Shown in pieces: positions 4,974 to 38,140 of a stretch of 64,000 nucleotides of DNA. Below the pieces are notes generated by a model. That model did not search any database. It was not told the origin of the DNA and saw only the letters and a list, made by a program, of their open reading frames with translations. The translations under genes and the position numbers were made by a program. Origin of the DNA: Pelagibacteraceae bacterium. Lineage in GTDB: Bacteria > Pseudomonadota > Alphaproteobacteria > Pelagibacterales > Pelagibacteraceae. Positions within the stretch are counted from its first letter, which is position 1, and every line of letters begins with the position of its first letter. The stretch is taken from assembly GCA_018402735.1 (NCBI GenBank), contig JAGYIF010000002.1, positions 124,001 through 188,000 on the forward strand, given 5' to 3'.

Positions 4974-4994
4974 TAGGAGCTTCTGGTGCTCCTA
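4974..4994. terminator. Hairpin between convergent genes
   Basis: TAGGAGC-ttctggt-GCTCCTA forms a 7-base-pair stem in the 185-base gap between the GH99-like gene and the convergent regulator gene. There is no run of T after it, so terminator function is a guess from position and symmetry. Confidence 0.4.
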
Positions 4995-5088
4995 TGTTGT
5001 CGTCACAGCAATCGGGTGGTGATCGCTGATCGGGCTGTGGCGGTAACTGCGTAGTGCTCGCATTGATCCGGCACAGGCCTCGAAACCC

Positions 5089-6156
5089 TCACCTGCCCTT
5101 CGGCACAGGCCCGATTGTCCCGCCTTCGACGAACTTGGACTTGATGAGCGTCTGCCGAAGGTCCTGCTTCCCGTGTGCAATGTTCTCGGCCCAGCGGGTC
5201 ACCCGGCGAATCACGGGGAGATAATCCCAGCGGATATGGGTGACGGGGGGCTCTTGCCACGCGAAGGTCGGGTCCCAATCGTCACACACGAGAGAGACAT
5301 CCCGCGGAGCGATGATGCCCCGTTGCGCCAGATGGTCTCGTGCGGCTGCGAACAGCCTCGGTTCCATGATGATCAGGGCGGTTGGAGGCGTATACCGAAA
5401 GAGAGTGTCCAGTCCGCGGTGAAAATCCTCGGAACCGCTTCCCCAATCGGGTAGGTTGTAGGATCCGATCTCGATTCCCTGGGCCTGCAGTTCATCGAGA
5501 AAGGCTTGTTCGCCAAGGGCCGGACGAGGCTTCCGGCGTTCCTCCTGCACCAGCATCACGATGCGCCGATGGCCAAGGGAAACCAGTCGCCGCACCGCCT
5601 CCTGAATCGCCGGAACCTTGCGGGGACACGCGGCCGCAATCGGAAGATCACTGAAGCGGCCGAACAGAGCCAAAGCTGGGACTGACTGCTCGGCAAACCA
5701 ACTCAGGACTTCGCGGGATCCTGCGGCAACGATCCAGGCATCGGCCGATGTGCGCTTGACCAAGGCCGCGACTCTATCGGGGCGCATCTTCAGATCCCAC
5801 AGGGATTCCCGCGCGAAATGGAATCGAAACCCTGTCTCCTCAAGCTGTTGGCTGAGTGCGGACATAAAGGGCATCTCACGGCTGGACTTGTCATATGGCA
5901 GGCATCTCAGAAGCAAGGGGCGGGGTTCGAGTTGCTCGGCAGACACCTGCACCCGCCGCCGCTTTCCCGCACCCTGCCCTACCAGCAGCCCTTCCTTCTC
6001 CAGCTGCCGCAGGGCCGTGTCCACCGTCTCCCGGTTCACTCCCAATTCTCTTTCCAAGCGCAGGACGCCCGGCATGAAGTCCCTCCATCGCCCCTTCAAC
6101 AATTCGGAACGGAGGTGCTCCGCGACCTGTTCCGAGCGTGTTGGAAAATGAAGCAT
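5089..6156 (-). CDS. GntR-type helix-turn-helix regulator with LacI-like sugar-sensing domain
   Basis: 355 residues. Residues 1-70 form a winged helix of the GntR type (SEQVAEHLRSELLKGRWRDF, then LERELGVNRETVDTALRQLE). From about residue 80 to the end it matches a periplasmic-binding-protein-like LacI/GalR effector domain (GHRRIVMLVQEERR, PTALIIMEPRLFAAA, DVSLVCDDWDPTFAW). This architecture is common in Verrucomicrobia and Planctomycetes for sugar-responsive control. Its place between the GH99-like gene and the PEP-CTERM and lyase genes suggests it controls this locus. A palindrome lies 21 bases before its start codon. Ligand unknown. Confidence 0.85.
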   Translation of the reverse strand: MLHFPTRSEQVAEHLRSELLKGRWRDFMPGVLRLERELGVNRETVDTALRQLEKEGLLVGQGAGKRRRVQVSAEQLEPRPLLLRCLPYDKSSREMPFMSALSQQLEETGFRFHFARESLWDLKMRPDRVAALVKRTSADAWIVAAGSREVLSWFAEQSVPALALFGRFSDLPIAAACPRKVPAIQEAVRRLVSLGHRRIVMLVQEERRKPRPALGEQAFLDELQAQGIEIGSYNLPDWGSGSEDFHRGLDTLFRYTPPTALIIMEPRLFAAARDHLAQRGIIAPRDVSLVCDDWDPTFAWQEPPVTHIRWDYLPVIRRVTRWAENIAHGKQDLRQTLIKSKFVEGGTIGPVPKGR

Positions 6157-6177
6157 TGCGGAAATAACCTACGGGTT

Positions 6178-6187
6178 TATCATGATA
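6178..6187. promoter_or_regulatory. Palindrome upstream of the GntR/LacI-type regulator
   Basis: TATCATGATA is a perfect 10-base palindrome in the 142-base gap between the regulator gene and the divergent PEP-CTERM gene. Position fits an autoregulatory operator. It is short enough to occur by chance, so confidence is low. Confidence 0.3.
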
Positions 6188-6298
6188 GTTGTCGAGAGCA
6201 ATCTTTCTGGACGAAGTTGTAGTGAGAGGGTTCCTTGAGCTCGTCAGTTACGCAACCGTCGAGCCTGACTTGCAATAAAACCTCAAATCAAACCTCAA

Positions 6299-7096
6299 AT
6301 GAAACATCGAAAAACAAGCCTCGTCGTTGCCGCAACCAGCCTTCTGGTCCTCGGCAGTTCAATTTGTCCGTGCCACTCCGCGACGATTATCCATGAAACT
6401 TTCGGCGGCACTGGCTCGGCGCTGAGCGGAACAACCGCTGAAATCTTCAACACTGCCATTGTGACCGCAGGTGGTTCAGCGACGTGGAACGCCAATAGCA
6501 ATTTTCTCGACAATGGCACTGTCAACAATGGGGCGGATGCCGGGGCATCTCTTAGTCTCGGTAGCTATGTCAACGATGCGAAGGGCACGGCTAACGGTAA
6601 GTTTGAACTCACCTATACAGTTTCGCAAACGTCTGGTGCTTGGATTTCTCTTGGATTCTCAGCAACAGCAGCACCGACGGCTCATTTCACGTCGGACGCG
6701 GGGGCTGGACTGGCGACCATCATCTATCGCGGTGTGGACACTGCCTTCGGCAATTTGGGCGAGTTGGATATGTATGCTGGCCCTAGGACTACGGATGCCG
6801 TAGATGGCCCGGATGGCAATACCGGGGCAAGGACGCTTACCGCTACCATCGATTTTACTCCCGCCGCCGGCTACGACGGAACGACTGACTTTGGAACCGT
6901 GACATGGTCCGATAGCGTCTTGGGGGACCTGGGTAGCGCAGCCCTGCCCAATTCAAGCTTCGGCTCCATCCTGATCTCAACGTCGAAAACCTCTGGGACG
7001 ATCAGTAATCTCACGCTAACACAGATCCCCGAGCCCTCAAGCATCATGCTTTCCGGATTGGCGCTAGCCGGGCTGGCCTTGCGTCGTCGTCGCTGA
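6299..7096 (+). CDS. PEP-CTERM sorting-domain secreted protein
   Basis: 265 residues. Signal peptide MKHRKTSLVVAATSLLVLGS up to about residue 26, then a Gly/Thr/Asn-rich beta-structured middle typical of surface lectin-like or adhesin-like proteins. It ends with a textbook PEP-CTERM signal: IPEPSSIMLSGLALAGLALR plus further arginines (Pro-Glu-Pro, hydrophobic helix, basic tail). This signal is processed by an exosortase and is frequent in Verrucomicrobia. The start codon lies in a tandem duplication of AAACCTCAAAT (6278-6301). The signal peptide is nearly duplicated in the next gene. Specific function unknown. Confidence 0.85.
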   Translation: MKHRKTSLVVAATSLLVLGSSICPCHSATIIHETFGGTGSALSGTTAEIFNTAIVTAGGSATWNANSNFLDNGTVNNGADAGASLSLGSYVNDAKGTANGKFELTYTVSQTSGAWISLGFSATAAPTAHFTSDAGAGLATIIYRGVDTAFGNLGELDMYAGPRTTDAVDGPDGNTGARTLTATIDFTPAAGYDGTTDFGTVTWSDSVLGDLGSAALPNSSFGSILISTSKTSGTISNLTLTQIPEPSSIMLSGLALAGLALRRRR

Positions 7097-7129
7097 AGTT
7101 GCCGCCTGTTTACGAATCCTTATTGCAGA

Positions 7130-7155
7130 GAGGCCCGCACCTTCGTGTGGGCCTC
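7130..7155 (+). terminator. Rho-independent-type hairpin after the PEP-CTERM gene
   Basis: GAGGCCCGCAC-cttc-GTGTGGGCCTC forms an 11-base-pair stem (one G-T pair) with a 4-base loop, followed by TTCTGTCT. It starts 33 bases after the stop codon and should end the PEP-CTERM transcript. Confidence 0.75.
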
Positions 7156-7206
7156 TTCTGTCTATGAAGTCTGCCATTGGAAGCCCCCCTGCTCATACCA
7201 CACGGA

Positions 7207-7662
7207 ATGGAACATCAAAAAACAAGCCTAGTCGTTGCCGCGATCAGCCTTTTGGCCCTCGGCAGTTTGATCAGCCCTAGCCACGCCGAGATCCTCGTCA
7301 AATACGAGTTCACCGGAGCGAGCGCGGCCCAGACTTCCGGAAGTGCCACGGGGACAAACGTGACATTCGGTGCCTTCACGGGCGGAGGCGCTGCTGGAAC
7401 CATCGGTTTCTCGGGTAGCACCGATGGTGACCAGTTGGGCGGGGTGACCTACGCCTCCGGCACTGCGCCGGGGCCCACCGATACACCCGACACCACACTC
7501 ACAACGCAGTGGTCCACCGACTTGGAGTTCTGGGAAGACTTCACCTCGCCGCAGAGCGAGACTCCGACTGGTGATGGCCTCGTGAATTGGATCTTTGTTT
7601 TAGAGGGACCGCCGGAGCATTTATTTATCAGACTGCAGGCAACCCCGGAAACAACAGAATAA
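7207..7662 (+). CDS. Secreted protein with duplicated signal peptide, probably a truncated PEP-CTERM relative
   Basis: 151 residues from the ATG at 7207. The signal peptide (MEHQKTSLVVAAISLLALGS) is almost the same as that of the gene at 6299, in both protein and DNA. The mature part starts EILVKYEFTG, a common opening of verrucomicrobial PEP-CTERM proteins, but there is no PEP-CTERM anchor and the C-terminus is unusual. Around 7587-7680 another frame reads GAFIYQTAGNPGNNRIR, which resembles the normal continuation of such proteins. A frameshift or internal deletion near 7580 is therefore likely. It may be a pseudogene; it lies 29 bases upstream of the lyase fusion gene. Confidence 0.55.
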   Translation: MEHQKTSLVVAAISLLALGSLISPSHAEILVKYEFTGASAAQTSGSATGTNVTFGAFTGGGAAGTIGFSGSTDGDQLGGVTYASGTAPGPTDTPDTTLTTQWSTDLEFWEDFTSPQSETPTGDGLVNWIFVLEGPPEHLFIRLQATPETTE

Positions 7663-7691
7663 GAACGCACAGCATCGACCCCACTAACACC

Positions 7692-10600
7692 ATGGCTTCC
7701 TCTCTACGATCACTTCTTTCCCTCGTCCTAGTAACCCTCTGCACCCACGCTGATGAGGTCGCCAAGGACGTGGTGGTTTATGGTGCCACACCCGGCGGCA
7801 TTACCGCCGCGATCTCCGCCTCGCGCGAAGGTCATTCCGTCGTTCTACTGGAGCAGACCCGGCACGTCGGCGGACTGAGCACCAGCGGGCTCAATCGCGA
7901 CGAGGCAGAGCACATGGATACGCGCACCTTCGGTGGTTTGAGTGAGAAGTTCCTGCTCGCCGCCCACCTGCGCAGCCGTGGCTGGACTGAACTCAGGCAT
8001 CCCGACAAGCGCCATCCGCGCACCTGGCAGTCAAAGGTCGCCGAGAAGGTCTTTCTGGAGATGCTTGAGGAGGCCGGGGTCGAAGTGCGCTTTGAGCAAC
8101 TCATCCAATCGGTAGAAAAGCAGGAGGCTTCGATTGTGTCCCTCACCGTGCGCGGTGGCACCACTTACAAGGCCAAGGTCTTCATCGATGCGACCTACGA
8201 AGGTGACCTGATGGCCAAGGCGGGCGTGTCCTACGCGCTGGGTCGCGAATCCCGCGATCAATACAGGGAGTCACTGGGTGGCGTGCGCTATCTCGACGAC
8301 CCTATTCCAGTGTCACCCTACGACAAGGACGGCAAGCTGCTGCCCGGCATCATGCCCGGCAAGCCGCCCGCCGAGTTTGGCGCCAGCCCGCATCCCATCT
8401 GCTACAACATCCGCCTCAACCTGACCACCGATCCGGAGAATAAGGTCGAGATTGAGAAGCCGGAGAACTACGACCCAAAACAGTATGAACTGCTGATTGG
8501 CAGCTTTCAGGCGGGCAAGCTGGGGAAGGTGGGCGATGTGCTTGCGCTCTATGGCATGCCGGGTGACAAACGCGAGTGCAACAACAAGCAGGCGGCCATC
8601 GTGTCCTTGAGCATGCCCGGCGAGCAAACAGCATGGGCGGAGGCAAGCTTCGAGCAGCGCGAGGCCATCCATCAGAAGTATCGCGACTACACCCACGGGC
8701 TATTGTGGTTCATGAAAACAGATCCGCGCATGCCGGAGAAGGTACGCAAGGAAATGGCCAGCTATGGCTTCTGCAAGGACGAGTGGACAGACAACGACCA
8801 CTGGCCCTGGTATCTCTACATCCGCGCCGCCAGGCGCATGATCGGTCCGGTGGTGCTCACCCAGCACGATGTCACAGAGACCCGCGACAAGAAGGACGTC
8901 ATCCACATCGGTTCGCACTACATCGATTCGCACCACGTCGCCCGCTACGCCTACGACGAGAACAGCTTCATCAACGAGGGCCGCATCTGGCAGAAGGGCA
9001 TGAACTTCGACATCCCCTACCGCGCCATCACCCCGAAGCAGGAGGAATGTGACAACCTTCTGGTGCCGGTCTGCGTGTCCGCCAGCGCGGTCGCTTTCTA
9101 CGCCATCCGGCTGGAACCGACATGGATGCACTTGGGTGAGGCCAGCGGCATGGCGGCCTCTCTTGCTATCAAGAACCAGCAGGCGGTGCAGACCATCGAC
9201 GTGCCCACGCTACAGGGTATGATCCAGAAGCAAGAGATTCCGTTGGACGTCCCCACCGATGAGGACGTTCAAGAAATGGTGAAACAGTTCAAGACACGTC
9301 TGAAAACCTCCATCATCGAGGAGAACCAGATTATTTATGATGCGTCTGAATCAGTCAAAACGATGCAGCCGGACGGCAGTTGGCCCGGTATCGATTATGG
9401 CTCGAAGGCTATGCACAATTGGCCTGGCAATGAACATCTGTTTCGCATGGTAGATATGTCCGTCGCCTATGTGGCAGATCCAAAGCACCCGCTATACAAG
9501 AATGATGACCTGTTGGAGAAAATCCTGAGGAGTATTGACTTCTGGTTTGCCAGGAATCCGACCGAAGGCCACCCGAACTGGTGGTATCGATCCATGCAAC
9601 CTCAAATGTCCCTCAGTAAAGTCTGTCTGTTGATGGACCCTTATCTTGGCAAAGAGCGACGAGCCAAAATGGTGGGTATACTGCAATCCGATGTTCATAG
9701 TAGGCATACGGGAGCCAATCTGGTCTGGTTTGCGGAGAACACCTTTTTCAAGGGGATTTTCCTCGAGGATTACGCCATGATGCAACATGCCGTGGCGGCG
9801 CTGAACAGAGCTTATACCCCGGCATACAAGACCCTGCATGAGGTCGCCCTTGAGGGCTTGCAGCCGGATTCCAGTTTCACTCAGCATGGCATGCATTTCT
9901 ACAACAATATGTATGGGCTGGGCTATTTCATGTCCTCCTGCCGCTGGCTCTACTTTCTTCATGACTCGCCCTTGGCATTCAGCAATGCGACGCGAAACCT
10001 GATCAATGACATGGCACTCAATGGAAATCGTTGGATGCTGCGCTATCATCAGAATGACCCGAGTTCTCGAGGTAGAGCCATAGCGACCCGCGTTCCGGAG
10101 AGGGGTAGCGCATCGCCTCTCTTGCACCCGCTCGAACTATTGAAGAAGGCTAATGACGACCCTGAAACGAAATCTCAGATTCAGCATTTTATCGATCATA
10201 TCAATGGGAAACGACCAACCCCGGGCGTGGTGGGTAACCGCTATTTCTGGCGGGTTGACTATATGTCGCACATCAGGGAGAAGTTTTTTGCGTCTGTCAG
10301 AATGGTCTCAAAGGGAGTCAAAGGTTCTGAAGAGACGATCGGGAACAATGTGCTGGGCGGGTTAACGAGCTACGGGCTTACCTTCATCATGCGCACAGGT
10401 AGGGAATACGACCATATCTTTCCTGTTTGGGACTGGGCCCTGCTGCCGGGAGTCTCGGCGCCCCGGGAGACGTTTCGCCCAAATCATCTATCACACATAG
10501 ACTCCACGTTTGTCGGAGGCGTCACCGATGGGACCTATGGTTGTGCCGCCATGGACTTCGCGAAGAAGATACCCAAAATCAACAAGAGTTTTAGCGGAAA

Positions 10601-11360
10601 GAAAGCGTATTTCTTCTTCGATGACGAAATCGTTGCACTGGGCACAGCGTTATCAAGTGATTCCAACAATGAGTTCAATACGACACTGAATCAGTGCTTA
10701 CTCACAGATCAGGTATACATCGACGGCCAGCCAAAGGGTCTGGAGGCATCACCGGTTGCAAAACAATACGAAGGGCGTTGGGTGAACCATGACAGTATTG
10801 GATATGTTTTCCCGGAAAAACAGACATTCATGCTAAAGAACGGAGAACAAAGCGGGTCCTGGAAGCGAATATCCACGAATCTCTCAGACGCTCCTGTAAA
10901 GCACAGTGTTTTCACCCTTTATCTGGAACACGGGATCAAGCCCAAGAATGGCAGCTATGAATACATTGTTGTTCCCGGCATCACCAGGGAGGAAACAGCG
11001 GCTTACTCTGAGAACATGCCTGTAAGGATATTGAAGAACAGTCACCACATACAAGCAGTGGAACATGTGCCGCTAAAGACTGCCGGGGTCGTATTTCACA
11101 AGCCGGGACAGATCAGCCTGACGTCCGGCCTGACAGTAAGTGCGGATCATCAATGTTTTGTCTTAATCAGCGAGAACCCCGACGGGAGTTTCGGGGTCTC
11201 TGCCGCAAATCCGGAGACCCCCGGTCTAAAACTGACGATCACGCTGAAGAACGCAGGCAACCAGAAGAGTGTGGTCTACCGATTCGAAGAGGGCATTGCA
11301 TTCCTGGGAAGAAGCATCACGAAACGAGTGGTCTTATCCCAACTGGAAGCGGACAACTGA
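7692..11360 (+). CDS. Secreted fusion of a FAD-dependent oxidoreductase and a family 8 polysaccharide lyase
   Basis: 1222 residues from the ATG at 7692, chosen because a signal peptide follows (LLSLVLVTLCTHA). Residues about 22-505 are a FAD-dependent oxidoreductase: VVVYGATPGGITAAISASRE dinucleotide fold, then HVGGLSTSG and a late LGEASGMAASLAI segment. Residues about 520-1222 are a PL8 (hyaluronate/chondroitin/xanthan lyase) module: NWWYR near 629, the Asn of TGANLVW near 675, the His and Tyr of FTQHGMHFYNN near 730, an Arg pair in SRGRAIATR near 792, then a C-terminal beta-sandwich. Both halves keep family catalytic features. GC falls sharply at the boundary near 9300. Substrate is probably an uronic-acid polysaccharide, fitting the nearby sulfatase. 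The FAD module's role is unknown. Confidence 0.85.
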   Translation: MASSLRSLLSLVLVTLCTHADEVAKDVVVYGATPGGITAAISASREGHSVVLLEQTRHVGGLSTSGLNRDEAEHMDTRTFGGLSEKFLLAAHLRSRGWTELRHPDKRHPRTWQSKVAEKVFLEMLEEAGVEVRFEQLIQSVEKQEASIVSLTVRGGTTYKAKVFIDATYEGDLMAKAGVSYALGRESRDQYRESLGGVRYLDDPIPVSPYDKDGKLLPGIMPGKPPAEFGASPHPICYNIRLNLTTDPENKVEIEKPENYDPKQYELLIGSFQAGKLGKVGDVLALYGMPGDKRECNNKQAAIVSLSMPGEQTAWAEASFEQREAIHQKYRDYTHGLLWFMKTDPRMPEKVRKEMASYGFCKDEWTDNDHWPWYLYIRAARRMIGPVVLTQHDVTETRDKKDVIHIGSHYIDSHHVARYAYDENSFINEGRIWQKGMNFDIPYRAITPKQEECDNLLVPVCVSASAVAFYAIRLEPTWMHLGEASGMAASLAIKNQQAVQTIDVPTLQGMIQKQEIPLDVPTDEDVQEMVKQFKTRLKTSIIEENQIIYDASESVKTMQPDGSWPGIDYGSKAMHNWPGNEHLFRMVDMSVAYVADPKHPLYKNDDLLEKILRSIDFWFARNPTEGHPNWWYRSMQPQMSLSKVCLLMDPYLGKERRAKMVGILQSDVHSRHTGANLVWFAENTFFKGIFLEDYAMMQHAVAALNRAYTPAYKTLHEVALEGLQPDSSFTQHGMHFYNNMYGLGYFMSSCRWLYFLHDSPLAFSNATRNLINDMALNGNRWMLRYHQNDPSSRGRAIATRVPERGSASPLLHPLELLKKANDDPETKSQIQHFIDHINGKRPTPGVVGNRYFWRVDYMSHIREKFFASVRMVSKGVKGSEETIGNNVLGGLTSYGLTFIMRTGREYDHIFPVWDWALLPGVSAPRETFRPNHLSHIDSTFVGGVTDGTYGCAAMDFAKKIPKINKSFSGKKAYFFFDDEIVALGTALSSDSNNEFNTTLNQCLLTDQVYIDGQPKGLEASPVAKQYEGRWVNHDSIGYVFPEKQTFMLKNGEQSGSWKRISTNLSDAPVKHSVFTLYLEHGIKPKNGSYEYIVVPGITREETAAYSENMPVRILKNSHHIQAVEHVPLKTAGVVFHKPGQISLTSGLTVSADHQCFVLISENPDGSFGVSAANPETPGLKLTITLKNAGNQKSVVYRFEEGIAFLGRSITKRVVLSQLEADN

Positions 11361-11408: not shown

Positions 11409-12818
11409 ATGAACCAACAAAAAGCCGCTTGCAATCCAATCCTTCTGCCACTCGTGCTACTACTTTCGGCCCCTTGGGCTTTCGCCCAGAACCCGAAGTC
11501 GGAGAATTTCCTTCCCGCGCGGGAACTCTACGCGCCCGCCCACTTCGGCAATGCCTATGAGGTGATGAGCGCCGACGAGATGAGCGCGTATTTGGCCGAG
11601 GTGAAATGGATGGGGTTTAACTCCTATTCGGATTGGTTCACGGCGACCGACGTGAATGATCCCTATTCGCCGCAGCATGCCGACGAAAAGAGCAGGAGCC
11701 GGTTCGAGAAAAAGAAGGCCATCTACCTAGCAGCCCAGGAGGCGGGATTGGCATTGAACGTGATCATTTGCCCTAATCATGTCTATGTGAACCAGTTGGC
11801 GGACAAGGAAATCGCTGCCACGAAGGGGCGTCTGATCCAGGGGCAGTTGATTTGTCCGAGCACCCCGCGCGGCAGGGAAATCATCCTCGCGAACCACCGG
11901 AACTGGTTCGCGGATACCGCCAAGGCGGGGATCACCTTCAACACGGTGACCGCGTTTGCCTACGACTATGGCGGCTGCGCCTGTGATCAATGCAGCCCCT
12001 GGATCCTGACCTCAGCGCAACTGACCAAGGAGATTCATGAGATCGCGAAGGAGTATCATCCGCAGATCGAGCCCTGGTATTGTTCGTGGTGGTGGAGCGG
12101 CGAGGACCACCAGTTGTTCAACGAATGGGCGGCCTCGGAAGCGCCCGGTTGGCTCAAGGGAATGACCATGCACATCGAATACAACCAGACCCGGCCAAAG
12201 AATGTCGCCGTCCCGGAGGGTTGCCGCAAACTCGCCTTCGTGCATATCGGCTATGGCGAAAGGGGCGGCTATGCCACCTACGGGAAGATGGGGCCGGTCT
12301 TCGGGCCGAAGCGCATTCCCGCCACCATCGCCGAGTTGAAAAATCTGGGCTTCGACGGGTTTCAGGCCTATTCCGAAGGTCGCTTTGATGATGTTAACAA
12401 GATGGTTCTGGCCGGCCTCGCGAGCGGAACGCAGCCGAATGCCGACACGGCACTGGAGGCCTATGCAAGGCGCTATCTGAGGGCCACTGAGACTGACGCC
12501 ACCCGCTGGACTGAATTACTCAAGCAATGCGTCGATCCGGTCAGCCCAACCGAATCGCGAAAGGAGCTCGACAGCTTGGCGAAGAAGGTTCCAGGCAACT
12601 GGCGGATCGAGCAATGGCGCTCAAGGCTTTTTCTCGTCGAACATGAGAGAGCGAAGAATGCGGAGCGCTTTCTCGATGCTCAGGATAAGCTCTACCGGGA
12701 TGTCTACGGCCTGGGCAAGGTCGACCATGTCCTGAACCCGGCGGTTGGACGGCCGGGCTGGATCAGAAGAACCAACGGCAAACCCGACAGCCAGAAGGAA
12801 ATGCTTCCGGAACAGTGA
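11409..12818 (+). CDS. Secreted TIM-barrel-like protein, possible glycoside hydrolase of unknown family
   Basis: 469 residues with a signal peptide (NPILLPLVLLLSAPWAFAQN). The chain alternates strands and helices as in TIM-barrel glycosidases (VKWMGFNSYSDWF, LALNVIICPNHVYVN, FNTVTAFAYDYGGCACDQC, IEPWYCSWWWSGEDH, GFDGFQAYSEGRFDD). Acidic residues in FAYDYGG and AYSEGRFD are candidates for catalysis. A CxCxxC cluster near residue 195 is notable and could bind a metal or form disulfides. It starts 48 bases after the lyase fusion on the same strand, so joint expression is likely. No characterised family is recognised with certainty. Confidence 0.6.
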   Translation: MNQQKAACNPILLPLVLLLSAPWAFAQNPKSENFLPARELYAPAHFGNAYEVMSADEMSAYLAEVKWMGFNSYSDWFTATDVNDPYSPQHADEKSRSRFEKKKAIYLAAQEAGLALNVIICPNHVYVNQLADKEIAATKGRLIQGQLICPSTPRGREIILANHRNWFADTAKAGITFNTVTAFAYDYGGCACDQCSPWILTSAQLTKEIHEIAKEYHPQIEPWYCSWWWSGEDHQLFNEWAASEAPGWLKGMTMHIEYNQTRPKNVAVPEGCRKLAFVHIGYGERGGYATYGKMGPVFGPKRIPATIAELKNLGFDGFQAYSEGRFDDVNKMVLAGLASGTQPNADTALEAYARRYLRATETDATRWTELLKQCVDPVSPTESRKELDSLAKKVPGNWRIEQWRSRLFLVEHERAKNAERFLDAQDKLYRDVYGLGKVDHVLNPAVGRPGWIRRTNGKPDSQKEMLPEQ

Positions 12819-18182: not shown

Positions 18183-18457
18183 TCAGCTTAGGGTATGCGC
18201 GGCATAGCGCATGCGGAAAATTTGCAGCCCGCATATCCTCGCCCGTGGTGCGGGCGGATTCAAGCGGAGGCGAGCATGAGGATCGCACGAACCCGGTTCT
18301 CCAGGTGTGCTGTGCTTCGTAGGCGGCGAAATCCGATTTCCCCATCCTGTCAAAGAGCGGGTAGTGCACGACCTGAACGAACCCAATCAGGCCCGTCATG
18401 AAAAAGGGTGACGAAGGCGTGTGCGGCAAGCAGCCATCTGAGGGTTTCGGCATTCAT
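18183..18457 (-). pseudogene. Frameshifted and truncated membrane-protein gene
   Basis: Two frames must be joined to read a sensible protein: MNAETLRWLLAAHAFVTLF from the ATG at 18457, then, after one base too many in a run of five T, MTGLIGFVQVVHYPLFDRMG and SDFAAYEAQHTWRTGFV. A third frame then gives RAILMLASA before a stop. The combined sequence looks like the N-terminus of a four-helix membrane protein with a conserved VHYPLF motif. At least two frameshifts and loss of the 3' part mark it as decayed, unless the T-run is a sequencing error. Confidence 0.6.
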
Positions 18458-18483
18458 CCTAAATACCGCAGTTGGGTATCAAT

Positions 18484-18684
18484 TTTTCACCGCAGAGTCG
18501 CAGAGGTCGCAAAGGAACGCAGAGCCTTGCATGTGGGAAGATAGAAAATTTGGAAAAACGATGGAACTGCATGGTTCACCCAATGGGTGAAATGGAATTG
18601 CCGTGAAAAATGCCCTGCACTATCCCGAAACACAAACTCTTCTCAGCGTTCCCTCTGCGACCTCTGCGCCTTTGCGGTGAAAAT
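18484..18684. mobile_element. MITE-like element with long terminal inverted repeats
   Basis: The left end (18484-18525, TTTTCACCGCAGAGTCGCAG and on) and the right end (18642-18684) are inverted copies of each other over about 42 bases with few mismatches. Between them are roughly 115 bases without coding potential. Arms built of repeated CGCAGAGG units are widespread in intergenic spaces of several environmental phyla. The element has no transposase and would need one in trans. It sits between a decayed gene and the 3' end of a FAD protein gene. Confidence 0.65.
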
Positions 18685-18710
18685 CTTCGTTTGAACTGCG
18701 GATTTTAGGT

Positions 18711-19943
18711 TCATGGCAGGTCCTCCAAAACTGCCTGCGCCGCAGCGGCTCCGCTGGAAAGAGCCGAATTGAGCGAGGCGATGCCGCAGTGGTCGCCGCA
18801 CTGGTAGAGTCCCTTGCGGAGCCGGGCGGGTTTCTCCGGCGCCAACCGCTGGGATGGCACGGCGTGCGGGATGCGGTCGATGCGCAGAAGCTCCCATTTT
18901 TTCGCGCCGGCACCGAACCAATCGACCAACTGCCGCCGCACGCGTTCTTCCAGATTGATCGCGGCAGCGACTGCGGAGTCCACGACGCTGATGGAAATCA
19001 GATGCCGTCCGGGCGGCGCGTAATCCGGCGAGACCGCGCTGAGCACTGTCAGGTTATTCACAGGTCCCGCGCCCTCGCCATTGAGCAGGAGAATCGGTTC
19101 ACTCACGGGCGCGCTTGCCGCGGTGAAATAGAGACAGGTAACGCTGTTGGAATCCGCAGGTGGATCGCTCCGCCCGAGCAATCGCCCCGTCCCGCCCGCT
19201 TCGGTGGCGATGACCACGGCCTTGGCTGCTAGAATTTCACCTCCCTCCAAATGCACGCGGTTTCCGTCGATGGCCTCGACCCGGGTGTTCAGGTGGATGG
19301 CGGCGGCAGGCAGGGCTGCGGCGAGCTGCCTGGGAATTTCCGCCATGCCCAGAGCGGGAATCGCGGTGTCGCCGCGGGCGAAATTCCGCATCACGAACTC
19401 CAGTTTCCGAACCGTCGTATCGAGTCGGCTCTCCAGAAAGACGCCACCGAGAAAGGGACGGAAAAACCGCCCGATCATCGATTCGGAGAAACCTTCCGCG
19501 CGCAGCGCTTCAAGCGTTGTCAGACCTTGTTCGTGGTGGGAGAAATCGAAACCGCCGAGACGCGACCAGCCCACTCGCAGCTTATCGGCGAAGGAGCCGA
19601 TGGGATTGAACGCACCGCGCAGGCCGTCGATGGGATGGCGGAAGGGATCGGCCACCCGGTGCCATTTACCGCCGTGGCGCACCAGCGCGCCGGGATAGAA
19701 GCGACGCAGGTTAAGCGCGTCGTAATCGAGCACCCGCTGTGCCTCGGGATAGGCGGTGAGCAGAACCTGGAATCCGCGATCCAGACGATAGCCATCGCAA
19801 ACATCCGTGGCGACCCGGCCACCGACGCGGTCGGCCGCCTCGCAGATCATGAAACTACGGCCCGCGGCATGCAACTGGCGCGCGCATGCCAGCCCGGCCA
19901 GACCCGCGCCGATGATCACAGTGTCGATTTCAGGGTGGCTCAT
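18711..19943 (-). CDS. FAD-dependent amine-oxidase-like oxidoreductase
   Basis: 410 residues from the ATG at 19943, chosen because DTVIIGAGLAGLACARQLHA (the FAD Rossmann motif) follows at residue 7. A second FAD signature, ADRVGGRVATDV, is near residue 40. The C-terminal YQCGDHCGIASLNSALSSG is the usual FAD-closing motif of protoporphyrinogen-oxidase, amine-oxidase and phytoene-desaturase-like enzymes. It is probably cytoplasmic or membrane-associated. Substrate cannot be told from sequence. An extended frame reaches 20060 but has no family match there. Confidence 0.8.
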   Translation of the reverse strand: MSHPEIDTVIIGAGLAGLACARQLHAAGRSFMICEAADRVGGRVATDVCDGYRLDRGFQVLLTAYPEAQRVLDYDALNLRRFYPGALVRHGGKWHRVADPFRHPIDGLRGAFNPIGSFADKLRVGWSRLGGFDFSHHEQGLTTLEALRAEGFSESMIGRFFRPFLGGVFLESRLDTTVRKLEFVMRNFARGDTAIPALGMAEIPRQLAAALPAAAIHLNTRVEAIDGNRVHLEGGEILAAKAVVIATEAGGTGRLLGRSDPPADSNSVTCLYFTAASAPVSEPILLLNGEGAGPVNNLTVLSAVSPDYAPPGRHLISISVVDSAVAAAINLEERVRRQLVDWFGAGAKKWELLRIDRIPHAVPSQRLAPEKPARLRKGLYQCGDHCGIASLNSALSSGAAAAQAVLEDLP

Positions 19944-34504: not shown

Positions 34505-35797
34505 GTGGATTTGTTTTCCGACATCCCCAAGAAGCCAGTGAAAGCGCTTTCCGTGACGCAGCTCGTCCGGAAAATGAAGCGCGCCGTGGAGGCGGACGTG
34601 GGTCGGCTGTGGATCGAGGGCGAGGTCTCGAACCTCACCAAGCAAGGCAGCGGGCACTGGTATTTTTCACTGAAGGACGAGGGTTCGCAGATCCAGTGCG
34701 CGATATTCCATGCCCGCAACCGCGAGGGTTCCGAGGCGCTGGAAAACGGCGCGAAGGTGCGGGTTTTCGCGGAGGCGACGGTCTATGAGGCGCGCGGACA
34801 GCTCCAGGTGATCGTTGAAAAGGCGGAGCGCTCCGGCTTGGGTGATCTTCAGGCGCGCTTCGAAGCGCTAAAGCGAAAACTCCACGCCGAGGGGCTTTTC
34901 GATGCGGATAGGAAAAAGGAACTGCCCGTTTTCCCGCGCGTCATCGGAATTGTGACCTCGCCGACGGGCGCGGCGATCCAGGACATCCTCAATATCCTCA
35001 AGCGGCGCGCGCCTTGGGTGCAGCCGGTGCTTTTCCCGGTGCGGGTGCAGGGGAGGGGGGCCGAGCGGGAAATCGCGCGGGCCGTCGAAAAGCTCAACGC
35101 GCCGGAGCGCTACGGATATCCGCGCTGCGATGTGCTCATCGTGGGGCGCGGCGGCGGATCGCTGGAGGATCTCTGGTGCTTCAACGAGGAGATCGTAGCC
35201 CGCGCGATCGCGGCTTCGGAAATCCCGGTCATCTCGGCGGTGGGGCATGAGATTGATTTTACGGTCGCGGATTTCGTGGCGGATCTCCGGGCGCCAACAC
35301 CGAGCGCCGCGGCCGAGATCGCGGCGCCAGATCTCGCGGAGCTGCGCGGGACGTTGCTGAATCTCCGCAACCGCCTTTCCCGCTCGCTGCGGCATCTCCT
35401 GCGCGAACCTTCGCAAACGCTCGACACCCTCCGCAACGACCTCGCCGGGGCGGCGGAAGCGGCGCTTCTCGGTCGCCAGCGGCTCCTGCAACAATACGCC
35501 ATCCGCCACCGCGCCCTTCACCCAGCGAATATCTTGGAAAGGCGCGTCGAGAAACTTGGCTCCCTGCAAAAACATCTCCTAAACCTCGTCACGCAGGGCG
35601 TTTCCCGGGATGCCGAGAAGCTCAAGCGCCTGGAAACCATGCTCCGCACCCTCGGCCCGGAGTCGGCCTTCAAGCGCGGCTTTTCCATCACCCTCACCGA
35701 GGACGGCACCATTCTCCGCAGCACGAAATCCGCGAAACCCGGCCAAATTCTCCGCACCAAGCTCCTCGACGGGGAGGTCGCCTCCACCGTAAGATAA
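34505..35797 (+). CDS. xseA: Exodeoxyribonuclease VII large subunit
   Basis: About 430 residues. OB-fold N-terminus (LWIEGEVSNLTKQGSGHWYF), then the catalytic region with FPRVIGIVTSPTGAAIQDIL, DVLIVGRGGGSLEDLWCFNE and PVISAVGHEIDFTVADFVAD, then a helical C-terminus ending SAFKRGFSITLTEDGTILRS. The GTG at 34505 is chosen because VDLFSDIPKKPVKALSVTQL starts the conserved part; a GTG at 34457 adds 16 unusual residues. Forms a nuclease for single-stranded DNA with XseB, not seen here. Confidence 0.93.
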   Translation: MDLFSDIPKKPVKALSVTQLVRKMKRAVEADVGRLWIEGEVSNLTKQGSGHWYFSLKDEGSQIQCAIFHARNREGSEALENGAKVRVFAEATVYEARGQLQVIVEKAERSGLGDLQARFEALKRKLHAEGLFDADRKKELPVFPRVIGIVTSPTGAAIQDILNILKRRAPWVQPVLFPVRVQGRGAEREIARAVEKLNAPERYGYPRCDVLIVGRGGGSLEDLWCFNEEIVARAIAASEIPVISAVGHEIDFTVADFVADLRAPTPSAAAEIAAPDLAELRGTLLNLRNRLSRSLRHLLREPSQTLDTLRNDLAGAAEAALLGRQRLLQQYAIRHRALHPANILERRVEKLGSLQKHLLNLVTQGVSRDAEKLKRLETMLRTLGPESAFKRGFSITLTEDGTILRSTKSAKPGQILRTKLLDGEVASTVR

Positions 35798-35806
35798 ACC
35801 CACACC

Positions 35807-36133
35807 ATGCCACCGACCGCCTTCGAACCATCGTTTCCTTTCGCCATCACGCTTCTCTGTTATGTCGCGACCGCCACGCTGGTGCTGATCTTGGGAACAC
35901 TGATCCTCATCAACTCGAAGCTCACCGCCCTGTCCGCGAAGCTTTCCCGCACTGCCCGCGCCGCAAAGGTCGAGCATGCCGATGCCGCGCCCGGCTCCGT
36001 GGAAGTCCATTCGGGCACGCACTTCGAGGAGTTTCTCAATGAGGATCCCGAGCGCCGCAGGCTCGTGAAAAAAGAGCAGTTCAAGGCATACCGTGCCTGG
36101 CGCTCGGAAAAAGGCCTGAACTGGTCGAAATGA
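35807..36133 (+). CDS. Small single-pass membrane protein
   Basis: 108 residues starting 10 bases after xseA, probably on its transcript. One hydrophobic helix ([20 protein letters not shown]) follows a short N-terminus. A charged cytoplasmic tail holds [20 protein letters not shown] and [17 protein letters not shown]. The C-terminal motif of acidic, basic and aromatic residues looks conserved-like, but no family is recognised. Confidence 0.65.
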
Positions 36134-36219
36134 GGGGATGTCCCGCCCGCACGGATCATTTTCCCAAACATTTCCACTTTCGGACATCGGGAGCGTGGTC
36201 TAGCATCTCGCCAGTTACC

Positions 36220-36972
36220 ATGAACCTCACTCTGAAAGTCTGGCGTCAGTCCGGCCCCCGCTCCAAGGGCAGCATCAAAACCTACGCTGCGGACAACATT
36301 CCGCCGGAAGCCTCGTTCCTCGAAATGCTCGACATCGTTAACGAGCGGATCATCGAGAAAGGCGAGGAACCGATCCACTTCGACCACGATTGCCGCGAGG
36401 GCATCTGCGGCTCCTGCTCGCTGACGATCAACGGTGTCCCGCACTCCAAGGAAAAGGGCATCACCACCTGCCAGGTTCACATGCGGAAATACCGCGACGG
36501 CGACACGATCTGGATCGAGCCGTTCCGCGCGCAGCCGTTTCCCATCGTCAAGGATCTCATCACCGACCGCGGTGCCTTCGACCGCATCATCGCGGCGGGC
36601 GGTTACATCGATATCCGCACCGGCTCCGCTGTCGATGCGAACTCGATCCCCGTCCCCAAGAAGGACGCCGACAGCGCCTTCGACGCCGCCGCTTGCATCG
36701 GCTGCGGTGCCTGCGTGGCGGCCTGCAAGAATGCTTCCGCCATGCTTTTCGTTTCCGCGAAGGTTTCCCACCTAGGACACCTGCCGCAGGGTCAGCCGGA
36801 ACGCCGCAAGCGCGCCCTCGCGATGGTCCGCCAGATGGACAAGGAAGGTTTCGGTAACTGCACGAACCAATACGAGTGCGAAGCTGCGTGCCCGAAGGAA
36901 ATTTCCGTGGATCACATCGCCCGCCTCAACCGCGACTACGGCAAGGCCGTGCTCGAGGAGCAGTTCGCGTAA
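36220..36972 (+). CDS. sdhB: Succinate dehydrogenase/fumarate reductase iron-sulfur subunit
   Basis: 250 residues. The [2Fe-2S] motif is [15 protein letters not shown], and the two cubane-type clusters are bound by [15 protein letters not shown] and [15 protein letters not shown]. The length and motifs fit the Bacteroidetes/Verrucomicrobia type B enzyme. It would pass electrons from the flavoprotein to the membrane quinone site. The usual sdhC and sdhA genes are not adjacent: upstream is a small membrane protein, downstream msrB. The flavoprotein must be elsewhere in the genome. Confidence 0.92.
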
Positions 36973-37020
36973 CCGCCAAGGGCATGGAATAACCCGCGCC
37001 CCGCGCGCCTCAAACCCGTT

Positions 37021-37560
37021 ATGAAAGCGAAACTCACCCCCTTCCTCGCCATCATCGCGCTCACGTTCAGCGCAGCCTGCGCCGAGGAAAACAAGAAAGG
37101 CAAAGCCATGGAAACCGTCAGCGAAGCCCCCACCGAACCCGAGGGCAAGGTCGTCAAGACCGATGAGGAATGGAAAAAAATCCTCACCCCCGAGCAATAT
37201 CACATCCTCCGTGAGGCCGGCACCGAGCGCGCCTACGGCGAGATTTACAAAGAGTTCAAAGAGCAGGGCGAGGGCGCGTATCACTGCGCGGGCTGCGACG
37301 CGCTGCTTTTCTCCTCAAAGGAAAAATTCGATTCCAAGTGCGGCTGGCCATCCTTTTACGATCCCGCCAAAGCCGAGAACGTCACCACGAAACGCGACAC
37401 CTCGGCCGGCATGGTGCGTATCGAGGTCGTCTGCGCGAAATGCGACGGCCACCTCGGCCACGTCTTCGAGGGCGAGGGCTTCGACACCCCCACCGACAAG
37501 CGCTACTGCATCAACGGCGTGGGGCTGAAATTCGTGCCCGCGAAAGCGGCTGCGAAATAG
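37021..37560 (+). CDS. msrB: Peptide methionine-(R)-S-oxide reductase, probable lipoprotein
   Basis: 179 residues. An N-terminal signal with a lipobox-like FSAAC (Cys20) suggests a membrane-anchored envelope enzyme. The MsrB domain starts TDEEWKKILTPEQYHILREA. Zinc ligands are the CAGC and CAKC pairs, and the catalytic Cys is in RYCINGVGLKFVP. It reduces oxidised methionine in exported proteins. The last codons and the stop lie in a 14-base tandem repeat (37547-37581), which adds one spare copy of the stop region. Confidence 0.93.
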   Translation: MKAKLTPFLAIIALTFSAACAEENKKGKAMETVSEAPTEPEGKVVKTDEEWKKILTPEQYHILREAGTERAYGEIYKEFKEQGEGAYHCAGCDALLFSSKEKFDSKCGWPSFYDPAKAENVTTKRDTSAGMVRIEVVCAKCDGHLGHVFEGEGFDTPTDKRYCINGVGLKFVPAKAAAK

Positions 37561-37581
37561 CGGCTGCGAAATAGCGGCTGC
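37547..37581 (+). repeat. 14-base tandem repeat over the msrB stop codon
   Basis: CGGCTGCGAAATAG occurs twice in full (37547-37560 and 37561-37574) and half a third time (37575-37581). The unit includes the TAG stop of msrB. It looks like a recent replication-slippage duplication and reaches the end of the next gene on the minus strand. Confidence 0.8.
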
Positions 37582-38140
37582 TATTCCTGCCCTTGGGATT
37601 GCTCGATGAGCGGGGCGAGATCCTGGAGGCCGCCCACGCCCTCCATCATCTGTTTTAGGCCGCCTGTGATGGCTCTGCCCGAGTTCACGGCGCGATCGAG
37701 CTGCTCCAGCTCCATGGCCGGAAGGTTCGTGATGTTGGCGGGATCGGCGGCCGCACTGTTTTCGGCGGCGGCGGCTACGCGCTCGGCCCGTTGGTCGAGC
37801 GATGTCTGGAAGGTGCCCGACTGTTCCGGGGAAAGCAGCGCCTGAAAACCGCTGACAAAGGCCTCGTCCGCCATGGGTTGTCCGCCGCGGAAATTGTTGC
37901 GGTCGAGGGGATTCATCACACCCGCGAGATCGCTACCGGACTCGGCCTGCATCGCCTTGTATTCCTCTTCGGAAAGCTCGCCGCGCTTGAACGAGTCGCT
38001 GGCAAGCATGAGCCGCATCAGGGCGGTGGGGTCTTCCTTGAGTTTTCCTATGGAATCCTTAGCCCGTTCCATCTCGCGTTTCTGAAAATCGGCGTAGAGC
38101 GCGGCGGCGGCGGTTTGCTGATCCTCAGAGAGGTTGATGA
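37581..38140 (-). CDS. Unknown protein, 5' end cut off by the composition junction
   Basis: About 186 codons are readable without a start: IINLSEDQQTAAAALYADFQ runs from the junction into the ATG-led part (38072). The chain is helical and rich in Ala, Glu, Gln (ALMRLMLASDSFKRGELSEE, FVSGFQALLSPEQSGTFQTS, VNSGRAITGGLKQMMEGVGG). The wording 'ALLSPEQ' resembles LTXXQ-like or sensor-type helical proteins, but no family is certain. The N-terminus is lost where the GC-rich sequence stops, so this gene is evidence that the join is artificial. Confidence 0.6.

Follow-up and report, generated by a model that had tools for sequence, protein, structure and literature searches.

Among solved structures, the closest to the lyase half of the protein described here are the chondroitinase AC entries 1cb8 and 1hm2 (274 bits), the first of which we take to be the enzyme of Pedobacter heparinus, with E371 presumably its catalytic glutamate. 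One study names N374 and E376 of chondroitinase AC as substrate contacts by docking and Arg292 as substrate-binding (PMC8733870). For PF12831 (FAD_oxidored), the family of the other half, literal text matching of open papers found no characterised member, nor any FAD–PL8 fusion; the nearest counterparts are stand-alone secreted proteins of Akkermansiaceae and Verrucomicrobiaceae that are 85–65% identical over the entire domain. The present protein departs from both. Like chondroitinase AC, it has all three PL8 domains and aligned catalytic N, H, Y, R, and E residues, but unlike that enzyme its lyase lacks a signal peptide of its own and is fused behind a FAD domain; and where the stand-alone PF12831 proteins with a visible end stop, it runs on into PL8.

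The gene lies in the window, i.e., the whole stretch of 64,000 nucleotides that was analysed (C12:124001-188000, from a genome of 1.32 Mb in 27 contigs), and its features are as follows (window coordinates).

7692..11360, + strand: FAD_oxidored–PL8 fusion gene, 1222 aa from the ATG at 7692
7692..7757, + strand: putative Sec-type N-terminal signal peptide, ~residues 1–22, called by eye
7767..9218, + strand: PF12831 FAD_oxidored domain, residues 26–509 (E 5.3e-97, profile positions 1–414 of 416)
9197..9335, + strand: composition change point, interval codons 502–548, best nt 9257
9258..11357, + strand: PL8-coding block, about 50.5% GC, GC3 0.60
9330..10148, + strand: Lyase_8_N (PF08124), residues 547–819, profile match
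9717..10331, + strand: catalytic positions N676, H732, Y741, R795, and E880, by alignment to Pedobacter chondroitinase AC
10236..10982, + strand: Lyase_8 (PF02278), residues 849–1097, profile match
10338..10346, + strand: substituted substrate-binding loop, I883 and N885, by alignment against 40 other PL8s
11025..11219, + strand: Lyase_8_C (PF02884), residues 1112–1176, profile match

The frame is also open back to an upstream TTG at 7587. The FAD part matches the PF12831 profile over its full length (326 bits) and carries a dinucleotide-binding motif, VVVYGATPGG, at its N-terminus, while all three lyase profiles of the second half exceed their Pfam cut-offs. Directly upstream are two adjoining genes with similar N-termini (6299–7096 and 7177–7662), the former with a PEP-CTERM anchor and the latter without one and truncated in appearance. 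On the other side the gene adjoins that of a 469-aa protein (11409–12818), secreted as judged by eye, for which no match was found in Pfam, NCBIfam, or PDB. At 1984–2646 there is an IS200-like (Y1_Tnp) transposase gene region, about ten copies of which, at 79–82%, occur in genome G121.

We read this gene as probably a recent in-frame fusion of a lyase of foreign composition with a FAD oxidoreductase in an Akkermansiaceae-type verrucomicrobium. The homology break falls at the domain boundary. FAD relatives were found in 6 of 254 family genomes (identities: G001 85, G184 76, G002 73, G003 68, G085 65, and G237 65%), and no PL8 domain is joined to any of them: in four the protein stops at ~residue 518–524 (window protein numbering), and in G002 and G237 a contig end truncates it. 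The lyase starts at ~residue 524, the place where other PL8 proteins (the best 22 in the alignment at the mature start) begin past their signal peptide. Since the closest FAD relative, 85% identical, is a stand-alone protein, the fusion appears to be lineage-specific. We propose that the mature, signal-peptide-less part of a PL8 lyase gene would have come horizontally from a source of lower GC3 and been attached, in a single event, to the final codons of a secreted PF12831 oxidoreductase that had stood alone (~residue 523, nt ~9257), whose signal peptide would now export both domains.

How far the surrounding contig can be trusted bears directly on this reading. C12:1-162,137 has ~60% GC, as against near 30% for the sampled remainder of C12 and most other contigs (one other small contig, C5, has 63%). 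Contig C14 of G121 matches window 34547–38137 at 99.69% over 3,591 bases and then departs, and the departure falls exactly where the window enters a truncated cysD of a 32%-GC genome; a sigma-70-like gene at this place is whole in G121. The contig is therefore chimeric at 38137/38138, with 162 kb of verrucomicrobial DNA joined to an unrelated 32%-GC genome. It is the verrucomicrobial part that holds the fusion gene, and the SdhB encoded there and that of G121, a genome of the host species, are 100% identical. Most of the remaining verrucomicrobial segment is absent from G121—most simply because it was binned elsewhere—so this genome neither confirms nor denies the fusion. The first-pass annotation had described a host half of the window far richer in GC; this needs amending, as the other half (32%) belongs to a different organism. 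A donor within that 32%-GC half was considered and rejected, as that half is another genome brought in by misassembly. The locus carries a warning, in that two unrelated genomes are joined in a 385-kb contig of an assembly with a completeness rating of 96.8%; a story of a low-GC donor drawn from this window would be wrong.

With a proven misjoin 27 kb further on in the same contig, the fusion itself could be an assembly artefact joining genes of two organisms, which would likewise make composition and homology breaks coincide. We nonetheless consider this quite improbable. A 264-bp repeat with partly complementary ends occurs three times in the contig's first 188 kb (252-bp copies at C12 positions 88286 and 94674, and a 264-bp copy at 142453, which is window 18453–18716), the copies being mutually 100% identical; there are about twenty copies at 98–100% in G121 and others at 88–96% in five other family genomes. 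The three C12 copies lie to either side of the fusion gene (131.7–135.4 kb on C12), and host-like GC3 (0.736) returns in the gene that follows it. Flanked in this way by host DNA, the fusion is unlikely to be a product of misassembly, in particular of a single misjoin; an artefact would take a double misjoin. The join moreover keeps the frame and coincides precisely with the C-terminus of one protein and the mature N-terminus of the other, and the junction sequence occurs just once in the contig's first 188 kb. No second genome carrying the fusion was found among the family genomes and the gathered PL8 ORFs; recent fusion thus rests on one contig with a proven misjoin elsewhere.

The base composition of the gene changes where its homology does. 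The first-pass annotation had reported a GC drop at the domain boundary (9200–9400) from single 60-nt lines of 67, 43, and 38% GC, values that we reproduce (66.7, 43.3, and 38.3%). Such lines are weak evidence when taken singly, because across the 162-kb high-GC stretch their GC has an SD of 0.078 and 88 of 2,701 are at or below 43.3%. Over whole domains, the FAD part has 60.7% GC and a GC3 of 0.80, as against 50.7% and 0.60 in the PL8 part, and GC differs between the 26 lines of the former and the 35 of the latter (p = 1.7e-7). The GC3 likelihood change point falls after codon 522, inside the range first named, with a log-likelihood ratio of 25.0, a quantity that never exceeded 9.7 in 2,000 permutations. 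Breaks of this size or larger occur in two more of the 14 ORFs that reach 700 codons; by inspection these breaks lie at internal Met/signal-peptide starts, and we read them as ORF-start artefacts.

Relative to its host DNA, the lyase-coding block is an outlier, though not a solitary one. Within the 162 kb, a 2.1-kb stretch of still lower GC occurs at one other locus only, and the block is nine points poorer than the remainder of that segment (50.5 vs. 59.9%). Codon usage, which had been suggested as a check, was compared with 34 host genes of at least 300 codons, the first third of each trimmed off: the PL8 part is further from the host than 32 of the 34, and the FAD part is ordinary (22 of the 34 deviate equally or more). 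Of the 97 host ORFs with 200 aa or more, 11 have a GC3 equal to or below that of the PL8 part. Low GC intrinsic to PL8 domains was ruled out as an explanation: in 49 other PL8 ORFs with >600 flanking bases the PL8 part averages 2 points above its flanks (minimum −4.9 points), so that a deficit of nine points is not a PL8 property. These figures also bear on whether the fusion is instead old, its domains keeping different GC through codon-usage selection. Codon bias can indeed differ between domains of one gene, and its host has sequences more extreme than the PL8 part, yet PL8 genes elsewhere are on average richer in GC than their flanks, four FAD relatives, the 85% identical one included, stand alone, and a FAD domain was found in none of 74 other PL8 ORFs (75 gathered including the window's, some genes fetched twice; drawn from the best 30 phylum matches plus 20 further regions, mostly with long frames). 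We regard an old fusion as very improbable.

Separate trees of the two domains had also been proposed at first pass. In the FAD tree (loci repeating the same gene left out), the window sequence adjoins Luteolibacter SFB_34D with support of 100/100. In the PL8 tree—made by a quick method from the 40 ORFs that scored 200 bits or more and had 540 or more residues aligned—the window lyase sits on a long branch (1.55; best identity 33%) with no supported small clade around it, and the tree therefore gives no donor. PL8 is matched in 18 of 260 genomes of the family and in 74 of 387 of the phylum, the nearest sampled relatives being 33–35% identical and full-length matches reaching 35% at most; the 18 PL8-carrying family genomes (n = 260) and the six FAD-carrying ones (n = 254) do not overlap at all. 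Together with the stand-alone state of the closest FAD relative, this is the reverse of the congruent trees that would have counted against a recent fusion. Verrucomicrobiota do include PL8 genes with about 50% GC (e.g., L059, L094, and L075), none of them close, and no close donor was found among Verrucomicrobiota genomes and plasmid records (47 plasmid records, none covering 80% of the query). The low-GC donor envisaged at the outset is not borne out, as a part with about 50.5% GC is not extreme.

Host-like codon usage does not by itself make the FAD half resident. Of the original account, according to which the lyase was recently joined in frame to a resident oxidoreductase gene, recency and foreign composition hold up, whereas residency, like the low-GC donor, does not: the genomes nearest the host by SdhB and XseA (G139, G167, and G164; XseA 85–89%) are not among the six FAD carriers, and the FAD part could itself have been acquired. 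In the extreme case, the entire cluster including the FAD gene was acquired, the fusion arose in the donor, and the FAD part matches the host by chance. The scarcity of FAD relatives, none of them in the genomes nearest the host, is compatible with this, as is the FAD identity to G184 and G002 (76 and 73%), which exceeds that of XseA (60 and 61%). On the other hand, SdhB identity to G002 (74%) is on par with that of FAD, FAD codon usage is host-like, and the gene may just be missing from draft genomes. We hold acquisition of the whole cluster to be unlikely.

Residue conservation in the lyase half gives some guide to its activity. N676, H732, Y741, R795, and E880 correspond to N175, H225, Y234, R288, and E371 of Pedobacter chondroitinase AC, and the first four—catalytic residues of PL8—are identical in all 40 other PL8s of the tree set, with E (36/40) or D (4/40) in the column of E880. 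The substrate-binding positions of chondroitinase AC are occupied differently. I883 sits at the Asn374 column, where 36 of the 40 have N, and N885 at the Glu376 column, where 32 have E and 7 have D; T799 is at the Arg292 column, which is variable (R in 18/40). The best profile, the chondroitinase AC equivalog NF043001, scores 329 bits against a cut-off of 1000. Retention of the core catalytic residues together with replacement at the N374 and E376 positions makes beta-elimination likely, on a substrate that may differ from chondroitin. By its sequence, then, the lyase would cleave an acidic polysaccharide in the manner of chondroitinase AC, with an altered substrate-binding loop.

For the FAD domain, structure prediction gave a mean pLDDT of 79.9 and a pTM of 0.87, and the model resembles PDB entries in general flavoprotein fold only (Foldseek TM 0.17–0.37 by query length). 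With VIA, Z reaches 17.4 over 206 residues and no single function stands out; PHROGs returned one weak Rossmann-type match. PF12831-like genes turn up repeatedly in the verrucomicrobial genomes examined, one of three having as many as nine matching loci. The flavin domain is predicted to act on the substrate of the lyase or on the lyase products. Going further, the protein could represent a bifunctional secreted enzyme of very recent origin, whose oxidoreductase and lyase, the latter with its altered substrate-binding loop, would act sequentially on an acidic polysaccharide outside the range of known PL8 enzymes. We advance this proposal tentatively and think it doubtful. If true, it would offer a recent, well-delimited example of signal-peptide sharing through fusion and a first lead to the function of PF12831 enzymes. 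Fusion to a lyase of known reaction type ties a PF12831-like domain to an assayable substrate class.

Gene neighbourhoods lend a shared pathway no support: FAD_oxidored matches occur in 2 of 20 PL8 regions and in 2 of 20 control regions, without enrichment, and functional linkage by neighbourhood was rejected. Two single cases are nevertheless suggestive of a FAD/PL8 link. In G444, a GH92–FAD_oxidored fusion (L208:346-4260, 1304 aa) adjoins a GH125–PL8 fusion (4993–8061, 1022 aa). Like the window protein, this arrangement joins FAD_oxidored to a carbohydrate-active enzyme and shows that such fusions do form; unlike it, FAD_oxidored is C-terminal of GH92 and PL8 C-terminal of GH125, in separate polypeptides. 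In G468 (L209:3200-7570), a stand-alone FAD_oxidored gene lies 42 bp upstream of PL8 on the same strand. A GH32-like gene, named by eye, is found nearby at that locus.
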